Positions 33,759 through 44,438 of a stretch of 64,000 nucleotides of DNA are shown here, one piece after another. A program made the translations under genes and the position numbers. Under the pieces are notes generated by a model, which worked only from the letters and a program-made list of their open reading frames with translations, was not told where the DNA came from and searched no databases. The number at the start of each line of letters is the position of its first letter. The stretch's first letter is position 1. This stretch comes from Pandoraea aquatica (lineage in GTDB: Bacteria; Pseudomonadota; Gammaproteobacteria; Burkholderiales; Burkholderiaceae), in the NCBI RefSeq assembly GCF_902459565.1, contig NZ_CABPSN010000003.1, positions 682,001 through 746,000 of the forward strand. The letters run 5' to 3'.

Positions 33759-35033
33759 CTAGGCGTAGTGCCGCGTGCTGAGTGCTTCGCCGCAATCGCG
33801 AACATGCGGAATGCTCAACTGCTTGAGCTTTCGATACAGCGATGCACGACAGAATCCCAGCGTGCGCGCGGCCGCAGAAATGTTCCAGCGATGCTGCGCG
33901 AGCGCTTGCAGAATGCGCTCGCGTTCCTGATCGTGCGGCGCGTGTGCTTCTTCGTGTACACGATATTGCGTGTGCGAAACAAGGCTGGCGGTATAGGCCG
34001 TTGCCTCCACACGAACGTCGCGCGCTTCCTCATCGTGTATCACCGGTTGTGCCGAATGCAAGGCACGCGATGACGCGAGTTCCGGTGGCAGATCGTCCAC
34101 ACACAAACGTTCCCCACTCATCACGGCGCACGCATATCGCAATGCCGCGCGCATCTGACGCAAATTCCCCGGCCACGCATGCATGAGAAGACACGTGAGC
34201 GCGTCGGACGTCACACGCGCGAGCGCCTGATCGACACGTAGGTCCGGCCATTCGTCGCACAACATGCGCGCGATCAGCTCGCGCTTGTCATCGCGCTCAC
34301 GCAAGGTGGGCAGCGTCAGTACGCCGACGGCGATCCGGTAGTAGAGGTCTTCACGGAACGTGCCTTGTGCGACGGCGCTCGCCAGATCCTGGTGCGTGGC
34401 GCAGATCAGCTGGACGTCGACCGGCACTGGCTGACTCGCCCCTAGTGGCGTGACTTCGCGCTCCGATAGCACGCGCAGCAAACGCGTTTGCATGGCGTAC
34501 GGCATGTCGCCGATTTCGTCGAGGAAGAGCGTGCCGCCATCGGCTTGCTGCATCTTTCCTTTCATCCCCCCGGGCAACGCACCGGAGAAAGCACCGCGCT
34601 GATAGCCGAACAGCTCGCTCTCGATGAGGTGCTCCGGCAACGACGCCGTATTGATCGCGACGAACGCCTGTGCGCGTCGCTCGCTGTACTCATGTAATGC
34701 ACGAGCAAGAAACTCTTTACCGGTCCCCGTCTCGCCGAGAATCAGCACGGGCAGACCACGGTCGACGAAGCGCTTGCCGCGCGCGAGCAGATCGCGCATG
34801 CGGGTGTCGGTGCCGCACAGATCGTCGATGGCGAGGTAGTCGGGGCGAAGCTGACGGGAAGCTGGGGCCGGCGCGGTGGCGGCCGGCACGCGTACGACAC
34901 GTTCGGCAAGCTCGGCCAGCGCGGCGATGTTGTTGAAAGCGGTATTGGCACTATGGGCACTGGCTGCGCCGAGGGGGGCGGCGTGGCCGACAGGTCGAGC
35001 GGGGGCGGACGCTACAGCGAGGTGAGCGGGCAT
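33759..35033 (-). CDS. Sigma-54 activator (AAA+/Fis, AcoR-like) without N-terminal sensor
   Basis: Enhancer-binding protein of 424 residues. An unstructured Ala-rich lead of about 65 residues replaces the GAF/PAS-type sensor of AcoR relatives. The AAA+ domain has Walker A GETGTGKE (100-107), sigma-54 contact loop GAFSGA (147-152, normally GAFTGA) and Walker B GGTLFLDEIGD (166-176). The Fis-type helix-turn-helix lies near 388-411 (WNISAAARTLGFCRASLYRKLKQL region). A ribosome site AGGAGAC precedes the ATG. A perfect 14-base palindrome (TCGTATTGGTACGA, 35048-35061) lies 15-28 bases upstream. It is a plausible activator of the two sigma-54 promoters at 40072-40594. Confidence 0.88.
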   Translation of the reverse strand: MPAHLAVASAPARPVGHAAPLGAASAHSANTAFNNIAALAELAERVVRVPAATAPAPASRQLRPDYLAIDDLCGTDTRMRDLLARGKRFVDRGLPVLILGETGTGKEFLARALHEYSERRAQAFVAINTASLPEHLIESELFGYQRGAFSGALPGGMKGKMQQADGGTLFLDEIGDMPYAMQTRLLRVLSEREVTPLGASQPVPVDVQLICATHQDLASAVAQGTFREDLYYRIAVGVLTLPTLRERDDKRELIARMLCDEWPDLRVDQALARVTSDALTCLLMHAWPGNLRQMRAALRYACAVMSGERLCVDDLPPELASSRALHSAQPVIHDEEARDVRVEATAYTASLVSHTQYRVHEEAHAPHDQERERILQALAQHRWNISAAARTLGFCRASLYRKLKQLSIPHVRDCGEALSTRHYA

Positions 35034-35196: not shown

Positions 35197-35211
35197 ATAC
35201 CTCAGGGGTAT
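35197..35211 (+). promoter_or_regulatory. LysR-type box ATAC-N7-GTAT
   Basis: ATACC-TCAGG-GGTAT lies at 35197-35211, directly before the LysR ATG at 35215. It overlaps its AGGGG ribosome site, and fits the textbook ATAC-N7-GTAT LTTR core, so autoregulation is likely. Confidence 0.5.
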
Positions 35212-35214
35212 CAA

Positions 35215-36159
35215 ATGATCGAGTTGCGCCATTTCCAGTACTTCGTGGTGCTCGCGCAGACCCTGCACTTCGGCCGCGCGGCCCAGCAATTGCATATCTC
35301 TCAGCCGCCGCTCTCGCGTCAGATCGCCTTGATGGAAGCGGAGCTGGGCGTGCAGTTGTTCGAGCGCACGAATCGCAGTGTGCGGCTCACGCGGGCGGGC
35401 AATCGCTTCTATCAGGACGCTGTGGAAATTCTCAACTCGGTCGATCGCGCGCGTCGCAACGTGGTGGCGGCCAGCCGTGGGGAAGATGGCGCGATTACGG
35501 TCGGCTTCATGATGTCCTCGGCGTACAACATCCTGCCGGCGCTCACGCGGACCTACGCGGCGGCGTTCTCGCGCGTCGACATGAAGCTTGCGGAGACGCT
35601 GCCGAACCTGCTGGCGGAGGCCGTGCGTGCCGGTCAGACCGACGTCGGCATCATGTACCGCCCGGAAGATCTGACCGGCCTCGACACGGCAACGGTGTTT
35701 CGCGAGGAGATGGTGGCCGTGATTCCTCGCACGCATCCGCTGGCGAAGGTACGGGTGCTCGACGCCGCGCAGCTCGCCGAGGAGTCGTTCGTGAGCATCC
35801 CGCGCGAGATCGCGCCGCTCGTCTACGATCTGGTCGTGACCCACTGCCGCCGCTCCGGGTTCTCGCCGCACATCCGGCTTGAAACGAACCTTCAGCAGAC
35901 GATCATCAACCTCGTGGGGGAAGGGCTGGGCGTGGCGATGGTGCCGATGTCGATGAGCGGGGCGAGCGCGTCCGGCAATGCGCTGTTCAAGCCGCTGCGC
36001 AACGCGCCGGTGGCCGAAGTGGCGTTGCTATGGAGCCGGGACAATCACAACCCGTGTGTGGCGACGTTCGTGGAGAATGCGCGCAGTGTATGGCGCGAGA
36101 TGCAGCGCGCGCCTGGGGCGCGGCTGGTGCCCGATCTGCCGGACACCAGCGTGCTTTGA
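35215..36159 (+). CDS. LysR-family transcriptional regulator
   Basis: A 314-residue LTTR. The helix-turn-helix lies at about 17-37 (HFGRAAQQLHISQPPLSRQIALMEAELG) and the effector domain follows with FMMSSAYNILPAL. The group resembles regulators of aromatic-acid and dicarboxylate catabolism (CatR/BenM-like N terminus IELRHFQYFVVLAQ). The ATG at 35215 is chosen for this conserved start. It lies divergent from the sigma-54 activator and converges on the SDR of the TRAP operon. Confidence 0.9.
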   Translation: MIELRHFQYFVVLAQTLHFGRAAQQLHISQPPLSRQIALMEAELGVQLFERTNRSVRLTRAGNRFYQDAVEILNSVDRARRNVVAASRGEDGAITVGFMMSSAYNILPALTRTYAAAFSRVDMKLAETLPNLLAEAVRAGQTDVGIMYRPEDLTGLDTATVFREEMVAVIPRTHPLAKVRVLDAAQLAEESFVSIPREIAPLVYDLVVTHCRRSGFSPHIRLETNLQQTIINLVGEGLGVAMVPMSMSGASASGNALFKPLRNAPVAEVALLWSRDNHNPCVATFVENARSVWREMQRAPGARLVPDLPDTSVL

Positions 36160-36204: not shown

Positions 36205-36960
36205 TCAGATTTCCAGAATCCCGGCCGCGACGAAGCCGCCGTCGACCGGCAGGATGTGGCCGGTGACGTACGACGCGTCGTCCGACGCGAGAAAACTCAC
36301 CGCACCGGCGATCTCGTGCGGCTGTCCGTAGCGCCCGAGCGGCGTCGTCTCCGTGTAATGACGGCGCGAAACGTCCGAGTGCAGCACTTTGGTCAGCGGC
36401 GTGTCGATGGGCCCGGGGGCGATCCCATTGGCGGTGATGCCGAAAGGTGCGAGTTCGATGGCCATCTGCCGCGTCAGCCCGATCACCGCGGCCTTCGACG
36501 TGCCGTAAGCCGTGCGTCCAGCACTGGCGAGAATGCCCGCGACCGACGCCAGATTGACGATGCGTCCCCAGCGCTGCTCACGCATGAGCCGCGCGGCGTG
36601 CTGCCCGCACAGCAGGGTGCCCGTCAGATTGACGGCCATGACCTGATGCCAGTGATCGAGCGGGTAGTCGAGAAACGGGAACGTCTTGGCGACGCCCGCA
36701 TTGTTCACCAGCACGTCGCAGCGCCCGTGGCGCTTTGCGATCTGCGCGAAGCCGTCGGCAATCGACGCCTCCTCGCCCACATTCATGCCCAGCGCCCACG
36801 CGCGGCCGCCCGACGCACTCAGCGCTGCGGCCGTCTCGGTCGCCGCGCCTTCGTTCAGATCGGCCACGACAACCGTCATGCCATCCTTGATCAGACGTTC
36901 GCAAATGGCGGCGCCAATACCCATTCCACCGCCCGTGACTACTGCTACCTTCTCCGTCAT
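36205..36960 (-). CDS. SDR-family NAD(P)-dependent oxidoreductase
   Basis: Classical short-chain dehydrogenase of 251 residues. The cofactor loop is TGGGMGIG (9-16), NNAG is near residue 86, and the catalytic Ser and Tyr-xxx-Lys lie in SVAGILASAGRTAYGTSKAA. The protein resembles 3-oxoacyl-ACP reductase/3-hydroxyacid dehydrogenases. It lies 102 bases after the TRAP permease with an RNA-stabilising hairpin between (36995-37029), so it is the last gene of the dctP-dctQM-SDR unit. It probably oxidises or reduces the imported hydroxy- or keto-acid. Confidence 0.9.
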   Translation of the reverse strand: MTEKVAVVTGGGMGIGAAICERLIKDGMTVVVADLNEGAATETAAALSASGGRAWALGMNVGEEASIADGFAQIAKRHGRCDVLVNNAGVAKTFPFLDYPLDHWHQVMAVNLTGTLLCGQHAARLMREQRWGRIVNLASVAGILASAGRTAYGTSKAAVIGLTRQMAIELAPFGITANGIAPGPIDTPLTKVLHSDVSRRHYTETTPLGRYGQPHEIAGAVSFLASDDASYVTGHILPVDGGFVAAGILEI

Positions 36961-37062: not shown

Positions 37063-38940
37063 TTACTTCAGGAAACCGATCGAGATCCAGGGGATGAAGA
37101 CTACGATGAGCAGGGCGACGAGCAGCGCGCCCATATAGGTCCACATCCGGTTGAACACTTTGTCGGGCGAGGTCTTGCCGATGGCGCACGCGGCGTAGAA
37201 GCCCACGCCGAGCGGCGGTGCGAACAGGCCCATGCCCATTGAGAGGATGACGACCATCGCGTAGTGCACGTCGTGAATGCCGAGGGAGCGCGCGACCGGG
37301 AACAGCAGCGGTCCGAACAGCACGATGGCCGGAATGCCTTCGAGCACGCTGCCGAGCACGATGAACACGACCATCGAGATGAGCAGGAAGCCGACTTGTC
37401 CGCCCGGCACACCGTGCATCAGGCCGACGAGCTTCGCGGAGAAACCCGATTGCGTGAGCGCCCAGGCCATGGCCGTCGCCATGCCGATGATCAGCAGAAT
37501 CGCGCCGGAGAGGGCGGCCGTTTCCGTGAGCAGCGGATAAAGACGCTTGAAGTTCAGGTGCTTCCTGAAGGCGTGGACGATCAGTCCGATCACGATCGTG
37601 TACGCGATACCGATGGTCGAGACTTCCGTCGCCGTGGCCGCGCCTTCGATCACGGCCGTGCGGATCAGGATCGGCAGCGCGAGGGCGGGCAGCGCCACGA
37701 TAAACGTCTTGCCGATCACGCCCCACGGTGCGCGACGTGCTGCGCTCGGCGCTTCCTTGCGCGAGCGGGCGAAGCACACCACGACGATCGCGAGCGTAGC
37801 GATCACGGCGGGCAGCAGGCCGCCCACGAAGAGTGCCGTGATCGACACACCGCACACCGCACCGATGGTGATGAGCACGAGGCTCGGCGGGATCGTCTCG
37901 GTCATCGCGCCGGTGGCGGACAGCAGCGCGACGAGGTCTTCCTGCTTGGAGCCGCGACGTTGCATTTCCGGGAAGAGCGCCGGGGCGACGGCCGCCATGT
38001 CGGCTGCCTTCGAGCCGGAGATGCCCGAGACGAGGAACATCGCGCCGAGCAGCACGTATTGCAGGCCGCCGCGCACGTGGCCGAGCAGCGACGCCATGAA
38101 TTCGATCAGACTGCGCGCCAGACCGCTCATCTCGATGAGTGCGCCCAGCAGCACGAACAGCGGCACCGACAGCAGCACAAGGCCGGACATGCCTTCGTCC
38201 ATGCGGCTGACGACGATTTGCAGCGGTGCGTCCGTCACGAGCGCCAGATAGGCGAGCGTGGCGGTCCCGAAGGCGAACGCAATCGGAATACCGCCAGCCA
38301 CACACGCGCCGACGATCAGCACGAAGAAGATCAGCAGGTTGTAGTTGCCCATCGCGATCAGTGCGGGGCGGCCGAGCCAGAGCGCCGCACCGAGGGCGGC
38401 GACGAACAGCACGCCGAGGCCGAACTGACGGGCGCTGGAGCAGCGCGCCATGCGTGAGATCGCGGCAATGAGCATGAGTGCTGCGCCCACCGGCAGGGCG
38501 GCCGCGCGCAGCCCGTCGGGGATTTCCAGCGCGGGCGTGGTGATGTCCATCTGTTCGATGGCATGCGTGTACGCGGGCATGATGATGAGCGCGACGAACA
38601 CGCACACCGTCAGCGCGGCCATAGTCTGAAACCAGTCGCGCCAGGCAGCGGGAAGTTTGTTGACGATGGCGGACAAGCGCATGTGCTCGCCCCGGTCGAG
38701 TGCGAGCACGGCACCGAGCATCGAGAGCCAGATGAAGAGAATCTGCGCGAGCTCATCCGACCACGTGAGCGGATTGTCGAACCCGTAACGCGAGATCACC
38801 CCCGCGAGCAGGATGAGAGTTTCCGCCACCACCAGCAGCACGGCAACCGCCTCGGTGACTTTCATCACCGCGCGGTTGACATGGCAGAAGAGGCGGGCGA
38901 GCGCGTGCGTCGGCTCGGCCGTCATCGTCAACGTTTCCAT
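37063..38940 (-). CDS. TRAP transporter permease, DctQ-DctM fusion
   Basis: Inner-membrane permease of 625 residues that fuses the small and large TRAP subunits. Residues about 15-170 form a DctQ-like four-helix unit (RYGFDNPLTWSDELAQILFIWLS motif). A linking helix precedes the DctM part (about 195-625), with VPLFVLLGALIEMSG and many helices. The start directly abuts the dctP stop. Na+-coupled uptake of an organic acid is the family role; the substrate is unknown. Confidence 0.92.
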   Translation of the reverse strand: METLTMTAEPTHALARLFCHVNRAVMKVTEAVAVLLVVAETLILLAGVISRYGFDNPLTWSDELAQILFIWLSMLGAVLALDRGEHMRLSAIVNKLPAAWRDWFQTMAALTVCVFVALIIMPAYTHAIEQMDITTPALEIPDGLRAAALPVGAALMLIAAISRMARCSSARQFGLGVLFVAALGAALWLGRPALIAMGNYNLLIFFVLIVGACVAGGIPIAFAFGTATLAYLALVTDAPLQIVVSRMDEGMSGLVLLSVPLFVLLGALIEMSGLARSLIEFMASLLGHVRGGLQYVLLGAMFLVSGISGSKAADMAAVAPALFPEMQRRGSKQEDLVALLSATGAMTETIPPSLVLITIGAVCGVSITALFVGGLLPAVIATLAIVVVCFARSRKEAPSAARRAPWGVIGKTFIVALPALALPILIRTAVIEGAATATEVSTIGIAYTIVIGLIVHAFRKHLNFKRLYPLLTETAALSGAILLIIGMATAMAWALTQSGFSAKLVGLMHGVPGGQVGFLLISMVVFIVLGSVLEGIPAIVLFGPLLFPVARSLGIHDVHYAMVVILSMGMGLFAPPLGVGFYAACAIGKTSPDKVFNRMWTYMGALLVALLIVVFIPWISIGFLK

Positions 38941-39960
38941 TTACGCGAGCTTCCCTGTGTACTTTTCCAACATGGCCCATGCTTCGTCGCCAAACTTCTT
39001 ATGCCATTCGGCGTAGAAGCCGGCGGCGCGAAGTTTGTCGCGGAACTGCTCGTTGTTCGGAGCGTTGAACACCAGCCCCTTCTGCTTGAGCTCCGCCATC
39101 ACGCCATCGTTGAGCTTGCGCACGTCGTCGCGCTGCGCCATGGCGGCGGCGTTCACGTTGGCGGTGACAATCTCCTGAAGGTCCTTCGGCAGCTTGTCCC
39201 ACTTCTGCTTGTTGGCGAGGAACCAGAAGCCGTCCCACATGTGGTTCGTCATCGACACGTACTTCTGCACTTCGTAGAGCTTGGCCGTGGTCAGCAGCGC
39301 CAGCGGGTTTTCCTGCGCTTCGACGATGTGCGTTTGCAGGGCCGAATACACTTCGGCGAAGTTGATCGATGTGGGCGACGAATCGAACGCCTTGAACATC
39401 GACGTCCACAGCGGGCTCGTCGGCACGCGGATCTTCAGACCCTTGAGGTCGGTCGGCGAGTTGATCGGACGGCTGCTCGTGGTGATCTGGCGATAACCGT
39501 TCTCCCAGATCTTGTCGAACGCGAACACGGTCGTCTTCGCGATCTGGCCGCGCACGTGCGCACCGAGATCGCCGTCCATGGCCGCCCACACCTGGCTGTA
39601 GTCCTTGAACGCGAAGCCCACGCCCGATATCTGTGCCGACGGCACGAGCGTGCCGAGAATCAGCGGCGAGAGCGTGAAGTAATCGATGGCGCCCGAGCGA
39701 ATCTGGCTCAGCATGTCGCTGTCGGAGCCGAGCTGATTGTTCGGGTAGATCTGGAAGTCGATGCGGCCTTTCGATTGCTCCGCAATCTTCTGCGCCATCT
39801 CCTTGGCGCGGATGTTCATCGGATGGCTGACCGGCAGGTTATTGGCGAACTTCAGCGTGAATTCGGCGGCGTGTGCCTGCGTTTGATACAACCCCGTAGC
39901 GGCGGCGGCCGATGTGGCGGCCACAACCTTGATGAAGTGGCGGCGATCCATGGTGCTCAT
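38941..39960 (-). CDS. TRAP transporter substrate-binding protein DctP
   Basis: Periplasmic receptor of 339 residues. The N terminus has a twin-arginine motif (DRRHFIKVV, residues 5-13) and a hydrophobic core with cut after QAHA (about 31), suggesting Tat export. The ligand domain has the conserved arginine segment LKGLKIRVPTSPLW and the NP/QENPL block. The ATG at 39960 has AGGAG 7 bases ahead, deciding it over a start 19 codons upstream. The operon is driven by a predicted sigma-54 promoter about 110 bases upstream. Confidence 0.92.
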   Translation of the reverse strand: MSTMDRRHFIKVVAATSAAAATGLYQTQAHAAEFTLKFANNLPVSHPMNIRAKEMAQKIAEQSKGRIDFQIYPNNQLGSDSDMLSQIRSGAIDYFTLSPLILGTLVPSAQISGVGFAFKDYSQVWAAMDGDLGAHVRGQIAKTTVFAFDKIWENGYRQITTSSRPINSPTDLKGLKIRVPTSPLWTSMFKAFDSSPTSINFAEVYSALQTHIVEAQENPLALLTTAKLYEVQKYVSMTNHMWDGFWFLANKQKWDKLPKDLQEIVTANVNAAAMAQRDDVRKLNDGVMAELKQKGLVFNAPNNEQFRDKLRAAGFYAEWHKKFGDEAWAMLEKYTGKLA

Positions 39961-40071
39961 ACTGCATGTCTCCTGTTTTTTGGTTTGGTGACTGCGTCTG
40001 AAGCGCGAGCCGTGCACACGTGTTGCCGTGCAACGTCCCGGCCAACTCGGAAAAGTGGCTGGCTAATCTTA

Positions 40072-40088
40072 CGCAAATCGAATGCCAG
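40072..40088 (-). promoter_or_regulatory. Sigma-54 promoter of the TRAP operon
   Basis: On the minus strand CTGGCATTCGATTTGCG matches the -24/-12 consensus, with TGGCA and TTGC both complete and GG-N10-GC spacing exact. Transcription would start near 40061, about 100 bases before dctP. Confidence 0.75.
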
Positions 40089-40275
40089 TTCGGCATCCGA
40101 ACGGGAAAACCCTTACGTTGTTAAGCATTAGTGAATTCCCGGGGGCGGTGCCACGCGCCGGTCGTGCGGCCTCTGTAGCCCTTTCATCAGGCGCAACAGG
40201 CCTTCGCGGCGATGCCGGGGGCGTGGCGCGTTTTGCTGCGTGTGCGAGGCTTGTCCGAACCCAGCAACCATGCGG

Positions 40276-40354
40276 GTGTGACACCTGTCGCATTTCACCG
40301 ACGCCTTGCGACACCTGTCGCAAATGCCGCTGCGTCCGATGCGACAGGTGTCGC
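40276..40354. promoter_or_regulatory. Three palindromic enhancer sites TGCGACA-N2-TGTCGCA
   Basis: Copies lie at 40276-40291 (one mismatch), 40306-40321 (extends to an 18-base TTGCGACACCTGTCGCAA) and 40339-40354 (inverted orientation of the CC centre). Centres are 30 and 33 bases apart, about three helical turns. They lie roughly 220-320 bases upstream of both predicted sigma-54 start points, the usual position for an activator of this class. Confidence 0.8.
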
Positions 40355-40577
40355 ACCGATTTGGGAGGGCTGGGCATTGCTGCGGCACAGCAAATTTTCT
40401 TCATCCGGCGCGCTTCAGAATTCACTTGATCGGCCACCGAATCCCGCTTTACGCTTGCGTCAATTGCGTATGCGCCACAAGCGCAGCAAGTGAACGACCT
40501 CGCAACGACGACTGACCGAGCCGTCGATGTGGCAGATCAGGCGTCGTGCCGCGCATGGACAAACGCCTTGCAGTGAT

Positions 40578-40594
40578 CTGGCATCGAAATTGCT
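40578..40594 (+). promoter_or_regulatory. Sigma-54 promoter of the thiolase operon
   Basis: CTGGCATCGAAATTGCT has complete TGGCA and TTGCT elements with exact GG-N10-GC spacing. Transcription would start near 40605, giving a leader of about 30 bases to the thiolase ATG at 40635. Confidence 0.75.
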
Positions 40595-40634
40595 CACCGG
40601 AGTCTGGATGACCCCAATTTTCCGGAGACACTTC

Positions 40635-41801
40635 ATGGTTGCTGCATGCCTTACCGGCTGGGCCCACTCCCAGTTCGGCAAACTCGATAACGTCGACGCC
40701 GAGGTCCTGCTGGCCGACGTCGCCCAGGCCGCCCTCGACGATGCGGGCCTTACGCCCGAGCAGATCGATTCCATTCACGTCGGCACCTTCAACGGCGGTT
40801 TCCTGTATCAGGACTTCCCGTCGTCGCTCATCTTCAACCGCATTCCCGGCCTGCGCTTCAAACCCGCCACGCGTTACGAGAATGCTTGCGCGACCGGTTC
40901 GGCTGCCGTGCACGGCGGACTGCAATCGATCGAGGCGGGTAAAGCCACGCACGTCCTCGTGATCGGCTTCGAAAAGATGACCGAACTCGCTACGCCGCAG
41001 GTCGGCGAAGTGCTGCTCAAGTGTTCGTATGCACGTGAGGAGGCTGGCATTCCCGGTGGCTTCGCGGGCGTGTTCGGCACCATCGCGCAGGCGTACTTCG
41101 ACCGCTACGGCGATCAGTCCGACGCACTCGCACGCATTGCCGCGAAGAACCATCGCAACGGCTCGGTGAATCCGTATGCGCATATGCGTCGCGACTTCGG
41201 TTACGACTTCTGCCGCAACGTTTCTGAGAAGAACCCGTTCGTGGCCGGTCCGCTCAAGCGCACCGACTGCTCGATGGTGTCCGACGGTGCGGCTGCGCTG
41301 GTCATCTCGAAGGCCGACGTCGCACGCGGCATGCCCAAGGCGGTCGGCTTCCGCGCCGCTGTGCAGGTCAACGATTACCTGCCGCTCTCGCGCCGCGACC
41401 CGCTGGCGTTCGAAGGTGGCCAGCATGCATGGCGTCAGGCGTTGGGCGTGGCCGGGGTCTCGCTCAAGGATCTGTCGCTGGTCGAGACGCACGACTGTTT
41501 CACCATCGCCGAACTCATCGAATACGAAGCGATGGGGCTGGCCAAGCCGGGGCAGGGCGCGAGTGTCCTCGCCGAAGGGTTGACGGAAAAGAACGGCCTG
41601 CTGCCGGTGAATCCGTCGGGCGGTCTGAAGGCGAAGGGGCACCCGGTGGGTGCGACCGGTGTGTCGATGCACGTGATGGCGGCCATGCAACTGACGGGAA
41701 CGGCGGGCGACATGCAGATTCCCGATGCGAAGCTGGCGGGCGTCTTCAACATGGGCGGCGCGGCCGTGGCGAACTACGTGAGCATTCTCGAAGCGCGCTG
41801 A
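40635..41801 (+). CDS. Thiolase-family acetyl-CoA acyltransferase (SCP-x type)
   Basis: A 388-residue thiolase likely to cleave a beta-ketoacyl-CoA or to condense acyl-CoA. The nucleophile is Cys85 in ENACATGSAA. HDCFT (His of the SCP-x-like group) precedes a C-terminal GHPVGATG motif whose His belongs to the active site. The ATG at 40635 has CGGAGA 6 bases upstream. It heads the operon thiolase - acyl-CoA ligase - PPC1 - PPC2 under a predicted sigma-54 promoter. Confidence 0.9.
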   Translation: MVAACLTGWAHSQFGKLDNVDAEVLLADVAQAALDDAGLTPEQIDSIHVGTFNGGFLYQDFPSSLIFNRIPGLRFKPATRYENACATGSAAVHGGLQSIEAGKATHVLVIGFEKMTELATPQVGEVLLKCSYAREEAGIPGGFAGVFGTIAQAYFDRYGDQSDALARIAAKNHRNGSVNPYAHMRRDFGYDFCRNVSEKNPFVAGPLKRTDCSMVSDGAAALVISKADVARGMPKAVGFRAAVQVNDYLPLSRRDPLAFEGGQHAWRQALGVAGVSLKDLSLVETHDCFTIAELIEYEAMGLAKPGQGASVLAEGLTEKNGLLPVNPSGGLKAKGHPVGATGVSMHVMAAMQLTGTAGDMQIPDAKLAGVFNMGGAAVANYVSILEAR

Positions 41802-41829: not shown

Positions 41830-43407
41830 ATGCTCAAGAAGGTCATGAACCTCGGCCGGATGTTGGCCGACGTCGCGCGGCGGCACCCGGACGAACCCGG
41901 TCTGATCGTCGGCGACAACGTCACGACGTGGGGCGAGATCGATGCCCGCGTGAACGCTGCCGTCGACGCGCTGCGCAGGCTCGGCGTGAAGAAGGGCGAC
42001 AAGTTGCTCGTGCATTCGCGTAACAACCTGCCGATATTCGAGAGTGCGTGGATCGCGTTTCGCCTCGGGGCCGTGTGGGTGCCGACGAACTTCCGCATCA
42101 CCGCGCCCGAAGCGGCGTATCTGGGGCAGTCGAGCGGCGCTTGCGTGATGATTTACGACGCGGGTTTCGAAGGCCACGTCGATGCGGTACGTGCCGCGTC
42201 GCCGGCGTTGCGGCACGTCATCGCTCTCGGAGCACCGCGTGCGGGAGAGTTGCACTACGAGACGCTCGTTGCAGAACACATGGGTGCGCAGGGATACGAG
42301 GAAGAGGTGGAGTATGAAGATCCGCTGTGGTTCTTCTACACCTCGGGCACGACCGGCCATCCGAAGGCGGGCGTGCTCTCGCACGGGCAGATGGCGTTCG
42401 TCGTTACCAACCATCTGGCCGATCTGATGCCTGGCATCACGTATCGCAGCCGCTCGATGGTCGTCGCCCCCCTGTCGCATGGCGCGGGTATTCACGCCAT
42501 CGTCAACACGGCGCGCGGGGCGGCCAGCGTGTTGCTGCCGGGCGAAAAGATGGACGCGGAGCAGGTCTGGCAGGCGGTCGAGCGTCACCGGGTCGACAAC
42601 ATGTTCACGGTGCCGACTATCGTCAAGATGCTCGTGGAAGATCCGGCCGTGGATCGCTACGACCATAGCTCGCTGCGTTTCGTGATCTATGCGGGTGCGC
42701 CGATGTACCGCGCCGATCAGAAGTACGCGTTGCAGAAGCTGGGCCGCGTGCTGGTGCAGTACTACGGGCTGGGCGAGGTGACGGGCAACATCACGGTGTT
42801 GCCGCCGTGGTTGCACAGCGATGACGACGATGCGCCGGATGCGCGCGTGGGCACGTGCGGCGTGCCGCGCACCGGTATGGAGGTGGCGATTCTGGATGAG
42901 CAAGGGCAGCGTCAACCGGCGTTCGGGTCGGGCGAGATCTGCGTGCGCGGCCCGGCCGTCTTCATGGGCTATCACAACAATCCGGACGCCAACGCCAAGG
43001 CGTTCAAGGACGACTGGTTCCACACCGGCGATCTCGGTCATGTCGATGCGCAGGGGTTCCTGTACATCACAGGCCGGGCGTCGGACATGTACATCTCGGG
43101 CGGCTCGAACGTCTATCCGCGCGAGATCGAGGAAGCGCTGCTCACGCATCCGTGCGTGTCGGAGTGCGCGGTGCTCGGCGTGCCCGACCCCAAATGGGGC
43201 GAGAGCGGGCTCGCGGTGGTGGTCGCCCGGGAGGGCATGGCCGCACAGGCCGATGAACTGCTCGGACATCTCGAAGCGCGTATTGCCCGCTACAAGTGGC
43301 CGCGTCGCTTCGTGTTCTGGAGTGCCATGCCCAAATCGGGCTACGGCAAGATCGTGAAGAAGCAAATCAAGACGATGCTCGAAGAGCAAGGAGACTATCG
43401 ACTATGA
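41830..43407 (+). CDS. AMP-dependent acyl-CoA synthetase
   Basis: Activates a carboxylic acid to its CoA thioester through an acyl-adenylate. The 525-residue ANL enzyme has the P-loop FYTSGTTGHPKAG near residue 172, YGLGEVTGN, the hinge block DWFHTGDLGHVDAQGFLYITGRASD, and the C-terminal lysine in KSGYGKIVKK. An AAGGAG-like site lies before the ATG. It most resembles medium/long-chain or aromatic acyl ligases; the acid is unknown but may be the TRAP cargo. Confidence 0.92.
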   Translation: MLKKVMNLGRMLADVARRHPDEPGLIVGDNVTTWGEIDARVNAAVDALRRLGVKKGDKLLVHSRNNLPIFESAWIAFRLGAVWVPTNFRITAPEAAYLGQSSGACVMIYDAGFEGHVDAVRAASPALRHVIALGAPRAGELHYETLVAEHMGAQGYEEEVEYEDPLWFFYTSGTTGHPKAGVLSHGQMAFVVTNHLADLMPGITYRSRSMVVAPLSHGAGIHAIVNTARGAASVLLPGEKMDAEQVWQAVERHRVDNMFTVPTIVKMLVEDPAVDRYDHSSLRFVIYAGAPMYRADQKYALQKLGRVLVQYYGLGEVTGNITVLPPWLHSDDDDAPDARVGTCGVPRTGMEVAILDEQGQRQPAFGSGEICVRGPAVFMGYHNNPDANAKAFKDDWFHTGDLGHVDAQGFLYITGRASDMYISGGSNVYPREIEEALLTHPCVSECAVLGVPDPKWGESGLAVVVAREGMAAQADELLGHLEARIARYKWPRRFVFWSAMPKSGYGKIVKKQIKTMLEEQGDYRL

Positions 43408-43940
43408 AACCTGCGCTTTCACGGGTCTTTCAACATGCAGGCGCCCCCACGTTACCCCGTGTGGAAGACTGCGTGTTGAGCGGGCAGCACGAACTGCGCG
43501 TGACGATCCGGACTGGTGCCAATCTCGGCGAGGCTTTGCGCGCGGCGTTATCCCGCTATGCGTACGGCGGCGGCGTCGGGCGTTTCTGTGCGGGGACCGC
43601 GAGAGGTTTGCGGTACCACATGATCGAGAACACGACGGATGCGGATCGTCCCTTCGGCTATGGTGAGCCGGTCGACGAGATGCGCGAGGTCGATTTGATC
43701 GGCGGCGCGATTACCGTGGGCCGAACGGCCGACGGCGCGACGCTGATGCATTGCCATGCGGGCTTCTCCGATCCGTCGGGCGAGCTGCATGGTGGGCATC
43801 TGATTCTCGATCACACGTGGGCCGGAGACGAGCCGGTGGTGATTCGTCTGTGTCTCTTTGCGCATGGCGGCTACGTGACAGGGGACGACGAGGAGACGCG
43901 GTTTCATCTGTTGCGTCCGGTGGCGGGAGAACTGTCATGA
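43404..43940 (+). CDS. PPC/DUF296-domain protein with intact metal site
   Basis: A 178-residue plants-and-prokaryotes conserved (PPC) domain protein. The metal-binding histidines of the family are seen as His116 and His118 (MHCHAGFSD) and His132 (GGHL). The start overlaps the ligase stop by 4 bases. Bacterial PPC proteins form trimers and their role is unknown; here the gene is locked into an acyl-CoA operon. The 4-base overlap with the next PPC gene suggests the two products act together. Confidence 0.85.
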   Translation: MKPALSRVFQHAGAPTLPRVEDCVLSGQHELRVTIRTGANLGEALRAALSRYAYGGGVGRFCAGTARGLRYHMIENTTDADRPFGYGEPVDEMREVDLIGGAITVGRTADGATLMHCHAGFSDPSGELHGGHLILDHTWAGDEPVVIRLCLFAHGGYVTGDDEETRFHLLRPVAGELS

Positions 43941-44350
43941 GCGTCGCGCTGGATGTTCCGGTCGCCATCGAGAATGGCACGTTGGGCAGGTTGGTGGTGG
44001 CGCGTCTGAAGCCGAATCAGGATCTGACGGAAAGCATCGAGGCGCTGTGCGCCGAGCATGCGATTGCGCGCGCGATCGTGCGTGGCGCGGTCGGGAGTCT
44101 GATCGATGCGAGGCTGGCGTTTCGCGCCGGCGACGGCTGGCGCGAGCAAGTGGTGAACGGTCCCGGGGTAGAGATCCTTAACGTGTTCGGTGAGGTCGAT
44201 GCAAGGGCCGGTGCCGCCAACGCCATGCCGATGCTGCACGGCATGGTGGCGGACACGAACGGTCGCATGTTCGCGGGACGCTTCGTGCGCGGCGGCAATC
44301 TCTCGTTCATCACTATCGAGGTGACGTTGCAGGAGTGGTTGCCGGCGTAA
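43937..44350 (+). CDS. PPC/DUF296-domain protein lacking metal-site histidines
   Basis: A 137-residue second PPC-domain protein. It keeps the fold pattern (LxxAxxSLxDAxL, GEVDxR, MLHGMVADTNG), but the positions of the metal histidines read His101, Met103 and Arg115. It is translationally coupled to the first PPC gene (ATGA). A mixed complex with one metal-binding and one non-metal-binding partner is an inference. A strong terminator follows. Confidence 0.82.
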   Translation: MSVALDVPVAIENGTLGRLVVARLKPNQDLTESIEALCAEHAIARAIVRGAVGSLIDARLAFRAGDGWREQVVNGPGVEILNVFGEVDARAGAANAMPMLHGMVADTNGRMFAGRFVRGGNLSFITIEVTLQEWLPA

Positions 44351-44377: not shown

Positions 44378-44408
44378 AAAGGGGGACGCATTTGATGCGT
44401 CCCCCTTT
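44378..44408. terminator. Terminator between PPC genes and alaC
   Basis: A perfect 14-bp stem (44378-44391 with 44395-44408) with a 3-base loop. T-rich flanks on the plus strand (CCCCCTTTTCTTG) and on the minus strand (GCTTTC) suggest it serves both converging operons. Confidence 0.88.
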
Positions 44409-44438
44409 TCTTGTCGTGATCGACCGATGCCGCTGCCG

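Follow-up and report, generated by a model that had tools for sequence, protein, structure and literature searches.

A putative shared sigma-54 control region between divergent TRAP transporter and thiolase/CoA ligase operons in Pandoraea and related genera

Catabolic operons under bEBP control, and sigma-54 control regions shared by two operons, are well known, the sigma-54 contact loop of the textbook bEBPs being GAFTGA, and LysR-type activators with a divergent target are familiar too, having a box of the form ATAC-N7-GTAT and a divergent regulator-target gene pair as their usual layout. The AcoR operator is described in PMC10018347 as palindromic and roughly 30 bp in length. The locus presented here lies within a 64,000-nucleotide stretch of Pandoraea aquatica DNA (hereafter, the window, meaning the whole stretch that was analyzed) and very probably holds, between two operons, a switch cluster turning on the uptake of a small organic acid and its CoA-dependent breakdown together.

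The two operons and the region between them

The genes of the cluster, along with a LysR-type box located between the two regulator genes, are as follows:

33759-35033, minus strand: sigma-54 activator (bEBP), 424 aa; Pfam Sigma54_activat (2.4e-64) and HTH_8 (Fis-type HTH)
35197-35211, no strand: LysR-type box ATACCTCAGGGGTAT (ATAC-N7-GTAT), the only match in the window
35215-36159, plus strand: LysR-type regulator, start set by alignment (ORF list: 35110)
36205-36960, minus strand: SDR dehydrogenase (Pfam, 7.2e-68)
37063-38940, minus strand: fused TRAP permease DctQM (Pfam DctM and DctQ)
38941-39960, minus strand: TRAP solute-binding protein DctP (Pfam), nearest solved relative 4oan (63% identity)
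40635-41801, plus strand: SCP2-type thiolase (NCBIfam PRK07516) with NACATG, HDCF and GHPVGATG motifs
41830-43407, plus strand: acyl-CoA ligase (PRK07470), 892 bits versus a cut-off of 774
43404-43940, plus strand: PCC1, PCC-fold protein with H116, H118, H129 and H132 invariant
43937-44350, plus strand: PCC2, PCC-domain protein that lacks the His motif

Pfam agrees with the allocation of these genes in an earlier note on this DNA, which had TRAP uptake and the SDR on one side and a CoA ligase, a thiolase and two PCC proteins on the other, and also bears out the sigma-54 activator gene that the note had placed some 5 kb away, the product of which has the AAA+ sigma-54 interaction domain and the C-terminal Fis-type HTH of a bEBP; the LysR gene adjoining it is an addition of the present analysis. 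The genome has a single rpoN match (225.8 bits versus a cut-off of 22.8). The sequence score of PCC1 is under the Pfam cut-off (22.5 versus 25 bits), its predicted structure being that of a PCC protein. Directly after PCC2, at 44380-44410, an inverted repeat and the T residues behind it resemble, by eye, an intrinsic terminator.

The divergent starts of dctP (39960, minus) and the thiolase gene (40635, plus) are separated by a 674-base gap, in which the following elements were found:

40029-40044, minus strand: additional, weaker sigma-54-like sequence upstream of dctP, TGGCCGGGACGTTGCA, restricted to close Pandoraea loci
40072-40087, minus strand: predicted sigma-54 element of the TRAP operon, TGGCATTCGATTTGCG, kept in relatives
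40277-40292: putative enhancer palindrome 1, one mismatch (TGTGACA)
40307-40322: putative enhancer palindrome 2, exact
40340-40355: putative enhancer palindrome 3, exact
40579-40594, plus strand: predicted sigma-54 element of the thiolase operon, TGGCATCGAAATTGCT, kept in relatives

Both of the outward-facing sigma-54-like elements with GG-N10-GC spacing that had been pointed out previously were recovered (40072-40087 and 40579-40594), TGGC and TTGC standing at that spacing on either side, and these two are the only TGGCA-N6-TTGC matches of the 64 kb window, for which approximately 0.6 would be expected under a first-order Markov model. Sixteen Pandoraea loci (338,621 bases) have at least two such sites each and 38 in total, all but three of which (35) fall in the dctP-thiolase gap, and no second site of the 40029-40044 type was seen at that place in L031, L032 or other genera. 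As for the three copies of TGCGACA-N2-TGTCGCA claimed in the earlier note, three sites are indeed present, but only two are perfect, the first having one mismatch; the spacing of 30 and 33 bases was measured just so (from 40277, 40307 and 40340), and the distance of 220-320 bases given for the palindromes from both start points agrees with the values computed between the palindrome centres and the starts implied by the -12 elements (approximately 257-320 on the plus and 224-287 on the minus side). Scans tolerating up to three mismatches showed no excess over chance for the two motifs (6 matches versus 6.8 expected; 115 versus 124) and, being at chance level, were left out of the evidence, the significance of the elements resting on strict matches, arrangement and conservation instead.

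Conservation across genera and operons that stand apart

Promoter elements, palindromes, the LysR box, the gene set, their conservation and their co-location were all shown by comparing sequences. The best 80 of 392 thiolase loci were kept, and in 53 of these dctP and the thiolase gene are near neighbours in divergent orientation. The closest named relatives of the thiolase among these best 80 of 392 come from 17 Pandoraea loci (82-100% identity), and the divergent set covers Pandoraea, Herbaspirillum, Paraburkholderia, Pseudomonas and others. Outward TGGC-N7-TTGC elements on both sides, at most approximately 200 bases from the start codons, were found in 52 of the 53 divergent loci versus one of 2,439 control windows, the palindrome with at most one mismatch in 42 (40 exact) versus two of 2,439, and all 53 hold the core ACA-N2-TGT versus 103 of 2,439, these counts overstating the number of events, because the control windows were taken from anywhere in the same loci, and are hence mostly coding DNA, and because related species are not independent. 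The sole exception for the promoters, L076, has the palindrome, its dctP-thiolase gap showing no recognisable promoter elements, and nine of the 11 divergent loci (out of 53) that have no palindrome with at most one mismatch are from Pseudomonas. The palindromes thus turned out to be conserved near the same operons in relatives, as the comparative check proposed in the earlier note asked, with their arms changed in Pseudomonas, and the observation of predicted promoters and putative enhancer palindromes is, as far as sequences go, real and conserved across genera.

Among the best 80 of 392 thiolase loci, some of which are incomplete, the ligase is present in 78, PCC1 in 65 and PCC2 in 71. Extra neighbours in other genera include an OprD porin together with DXP and FPP synthases (L061), a D-lactate dehydrogenase (L060), an aldo/keto reductase (L056) and an alginate lyase (L040), and these four loci point to no consistent substrate.

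A sceptic might take the two promoters as unrelated ones that share a region by chance and serve operons of different pathways, and the fact that the operons are apart in some genera would fit this, as would L169-L171, where dctP and dctQM accompany a different ligase and neither a thiolase nor a PCC match turned up within 19.8 kb. Where the operons stand apart, however, they retain the same control elements: in the six Pseudomonas loci with the TRAP and thiolase genes some kilobases from each other (L060, L061, L063, L064, L068 and L075), all six thiolase operons are preceded by both a sigma-54 element and a palindrome core, and dctP has a sigma-54 element in six and the palindrome core in five (L060 lacks the core), which, pooled, amounts to sigma-54 elements in 12/12 upstream regions and palindrome cores in 11/12. 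The gene set, moreover, stays linked across several genera, and a chance arrangement seems to us most improbable. We regard the separated Pseudomonas operons as the strongest comparative test of one regulon, and the putative regulon passed it; the previous proposal of one regulon for uptake and CoA-dependent breakdown is supported, with the palindromes conserved and the separated operons keeping their control elements.

A probable route from the signal to the promoters

The explanation we find quite probable for the locus as a whole, judging from the sequence comparisons, is a shared sigma-54 control region from which an activator would serve both operons via the palindromes, with a LysR-type protein providing the input. 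A signal would act on the LysR protein at its own box (35197-35211), setting the amount of the AcoR-related activator (33759-35033), which would bind the 16-bp palindromes in the middle of the region and, by DNA looping, open both outward sigma-54 promoters; one of these would yield TRAP uptake and the SDR, and the other would yield the thiolase, the CoA ligase and the two PCC proteins, so that a small acid would be imported, oxidised by the SDR, converted to a CoA ester and cleaved by thiolysis. What we infer from the comparison is that these proteins bind the sites named and that the DNA loops, as well as the LysR step, the sequence of reactions and the substrate.

In 32 genomes of the window's genus, 73 exact palindromes are spread over 28 genomes, 54 of them less than 1 kb from the thiolase start and 17 approximately 1.4 kb from the gene of an activator paralogue (57-60% identical); two (L148:3019 and L149:2981) are near neither cluster. 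Exact palindromes are missing from four genomes: in G003 and G028 the cluster is present, its palindromes having one mismatch and its two promoter elements being in place, and G017 and G026 have no thiolase match. There are 21 activator paralogue genes, and the region could be read for 20 of them (the G026 contig ends before it); at 20/20 of these loci, the palindrome (17 exact, two with one mismatch and one with two) stands between two outward sigma-54-like elements, the reductase-side one being off consensus at -24 (TGGWTCG). In the window's own genome (L097:9018-11191, contig C7), as well as at 19 like loci, activator and LysR paralogues adjoin this second palindrome site, which is flanked by what looks by eye like a phosphopantetheinyl-transferase-like ORF (no NCBIfam hit, and no Pfam hit for a longer reading of the frame) and, on the other side, by an aldo/keto reductase. 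In Burkholderia/Paraburkholderia, an aldo/keto reductase adjoins the main-cluster ligase (L056:12941-13930 and L062), being 71% (L056) and 70% (L062) identical to its counterpart at the second palindrome site of Pandoraea.

The HTHs of the activator and its paralogue have 29/43 residues in common, and the activator is supported as the palindrome reader, because the same palindrome recurs next to its paralogue at another place in the genome. The HTH of the Pseudomonas activators is altered (mostly CRPSLYR, and I-A/P-P-L for IPHVRD), and so are the palindrome arms (e.g., GGAGACACCTGTTACA), with the core retained. In a family sample of 120 genomes, the exact palindrome occurs in 15, namely in 10/11 of the window's genus and in 5/109 of the others. 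Two of the latter five (L179 and L183) have the same cluster, one (L182) has no match to the query proteins, and the remaining two (L180 and L181) show tandem palindromes 23 bases apart together with a sigma-54 element, an activator gene lying within the same 19.8 kb; the element of L181 (L181:9675-18515) is approximately 100 bases before genes for E1alpha, E1beta and an E2 catalytic domain (Pfam, L181 only). The L181 activator, from another genus, is a 669-aa protein with a long N-terminal part, 45% identical to the window activator over AAA+ and HTH. The product of 33759-35033, then, would be the protein that reads the palindromes.

One could argue that the palindromes are LysR sites instead, with the LysR protein running the operons and the activator working elsewhere: a LysR gene adjoins the activator gene both at the cluster and at the paralogue locus, with similar HTHs (45/59 residues identical), and, as the paralogue locus also has its LysR gene, co-location per se does not exclude LysR as the reader. 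LysR, however, has another box, which lowers this reading; a separate classical box is found by the LysR gene itself in 34/36 non-Pseudomonas loci with both regulator genes, and no palindrome with fewer than four mismatches lies between the two regulator genes in 51 loci. In addition, the palindromes are more than 200 bases from the start points of sigma-54 promoters, which require an enhancer-binding protein, and the tandem palindromes of L180 and L181 occur with an activator and no LysR match within 19.8 kb, the other regulator of L181 being of the IclR type. Palindromes read by LysR would, thus, seem very unlikely.

ATAC-N7-GTAT is located between the activator and lysR in 34 of the 51 loci with both genes, or, by genus, in 34/36 non-Pseudomonas and 0/15 Pseudomonas loci, the two non-Pseudomonas loci without it (L035 and L036) having TTACC...GGTAT instead. 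Elsewhere in 1.55 Mb there are eight matches, of which the one in L037 resembles the same box at a cut edge, as the activator gene falls outside that locus. None of the 19 paralogue loci scanned has the box, and its absence there and in Pseudomonas makes the LysR step less general than the sigma-54 step. The best NCBIfam model for the LysR protein is AlsR (NF045775) at 253 bits versus a cut-off of 430, and membership in AlsR was rejected at that score, which is under the curated cut-off.

The activator itself has no recognised domain before AAA+ (Pfam), with 49-138 residues ahead of Walker A in 53 sequences, and all 53 activators (that of the window and those of 52 loci) have a GAFSGA loop, i.e., Ser where GAFTGA has Thr, as does the paralogue in the window's genome, the L181 protein having GTFTGA. 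Since no input domain is recognised, the signal most likely enters via LysR. The signal might also act on the activator directly, for instance by way of a partner protein (as PspF is controlled by PspA) or of the activator's short and variable N-terminus, with LysR regulating only itself; the fact that just 3 bases separate the LysR box from the start codon of LysR, which autoregulation would call for, and the variability of the activator N-termini would agree with this, whereas the poor conservation of the N-terminal part across loci and the divergent orientation of the LysR and activator genes in 51/51 loci with both do not. We deem such a direct signal rather unlikely, and input via LysR seems to be the simplest reading.

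Substrate hints and relation to known systems

The thiolase scores 654.5 bits versus a cut-off of 412 (PRK07516), the catalytic Cys, HDCF and GHP motifs are present, and its HDCF aligns with 4bi9. PCC1 is a PCC/DUF296 protein by fold and His motif: residues H116, H118, H129 and H132 are invariant in 33 sequences, the HxH...GGH motif lines up with that of PCC proteins of solved structure, and the model (mean pLDDT 86) matches PCC structures with Z scores of 16.1-17.3, as opposed to 7.7-10.3 for acetolactate decarboxylases (3.2-4.5 A rmsd over 113-132 residues), to which no sequence match was found among the matches listed. PCC structures also top the Foldseek list, followed by acetolactate decarboxylases (E 0.006-0.03), with unrelated rows mixed in at the lower end, a ranking that roughly matches the VIA list. 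PCC proteins are not known to act as decarboxylases.

DctP resembles 4oan (RPB_2686), the 63% identity of which is independent of the middling DctP model (mean pLDDT 73) giving Z 30.6 and an rmsd of 3.0 over 287 residues, and the ligand of which was reportedly modelled as acetolactate. A review (PMC5812351) counts 2-acetolactate among the new TRAP ligands of the same project, with the protein not named. These hints (4oan, the PCC1 fold and a LysR protein nearest to AlsR), each weak, tentatively suggest a small hydroxy- or keto-acid as the substrate class, an acetolactate-type substrate in particular being improbable. Taken all together, a LysR-to-sigma-54 cascade, a sensorless GAFSGA activator, AcoR-like enhancers, an acetolactate-type 2-hydroxy-3-oxo acid and PCC1/PCC2 acting as a metal-dependent enzyme of the acetolactate decarboxylase superfamily make up a conjunction that we consider unlikely. 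A TRAP transporter paired with a malonyl-CoA ligase is a familiar combination, and malonate, considered for the DctP relatives of L169-L171, was rejected as the substrate: the ligases of L170 and L171 match PRK08162 (962-963 bits) and score 211-212 for malonyl-CoA synthase, under the cut-off of 558.

The probable regulon comes with a clear, searchable DNA signature from Pandoraea to Pseudomonas, which makes its substrate accessible by simple growth and reporter tests, and it also provides a genetic context for testing the role of bacterial PCC/DUF296 proteins as well as a natural set of activators in which the loop for sigma-54 contact is altered and no sensor domain is recognised. Should PCC1/PCC2 prove to be an enzyme, this would be the first metabolic role for bacterial PCC/DUF296 proteins, labelled “putative DNA-binding” in structure entries. 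Among the papers listed in literature searches for this gene set, which covered a minority of subscription papers, none names such a system, which lends weak support to the corresponding claim of the earlier note.

AcoR with the sigma-54-dependent acetoin (aco) operons is among the closest of the described systems, given the identity of the window activator to the L181 bEBP over AAA+ and HTH and the tandem palindromes with a sigma-54 element before the E1alpha, E1beta and E2 genes of L181, the protein of which we infer to be AcoR from gene context and size (it gave no GAF domain or AcoR model hit). The window activator differs in being without the long N-terminal part, in having GAFSGA versus GTFTGA, in being paired with a LysR gene and in having TRAP, CoA-ligase and thiolase genes as its presumed targets; having no sensor region, and its gene set including no acetoin dehydrogenase genes, it was rejected as AcoR itself, and it may nevertheless read DNA like AcoR. 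With LysR-type activators, the box and the divergent layout are alike, the presumed target here being a sigma-54 activator, i.e., a two-step cascade, and with acetolactate decarboxylases, PCC1 has the structural likeness given above at a sequence identity of 8-14%. What sets the locus apart is the combination: a GAFSGA activator with AcoR-like kin in which no sensor domain is recognised, a divergent LysR gene, and palindromes that serve two operons here and recur at another conserved locus.
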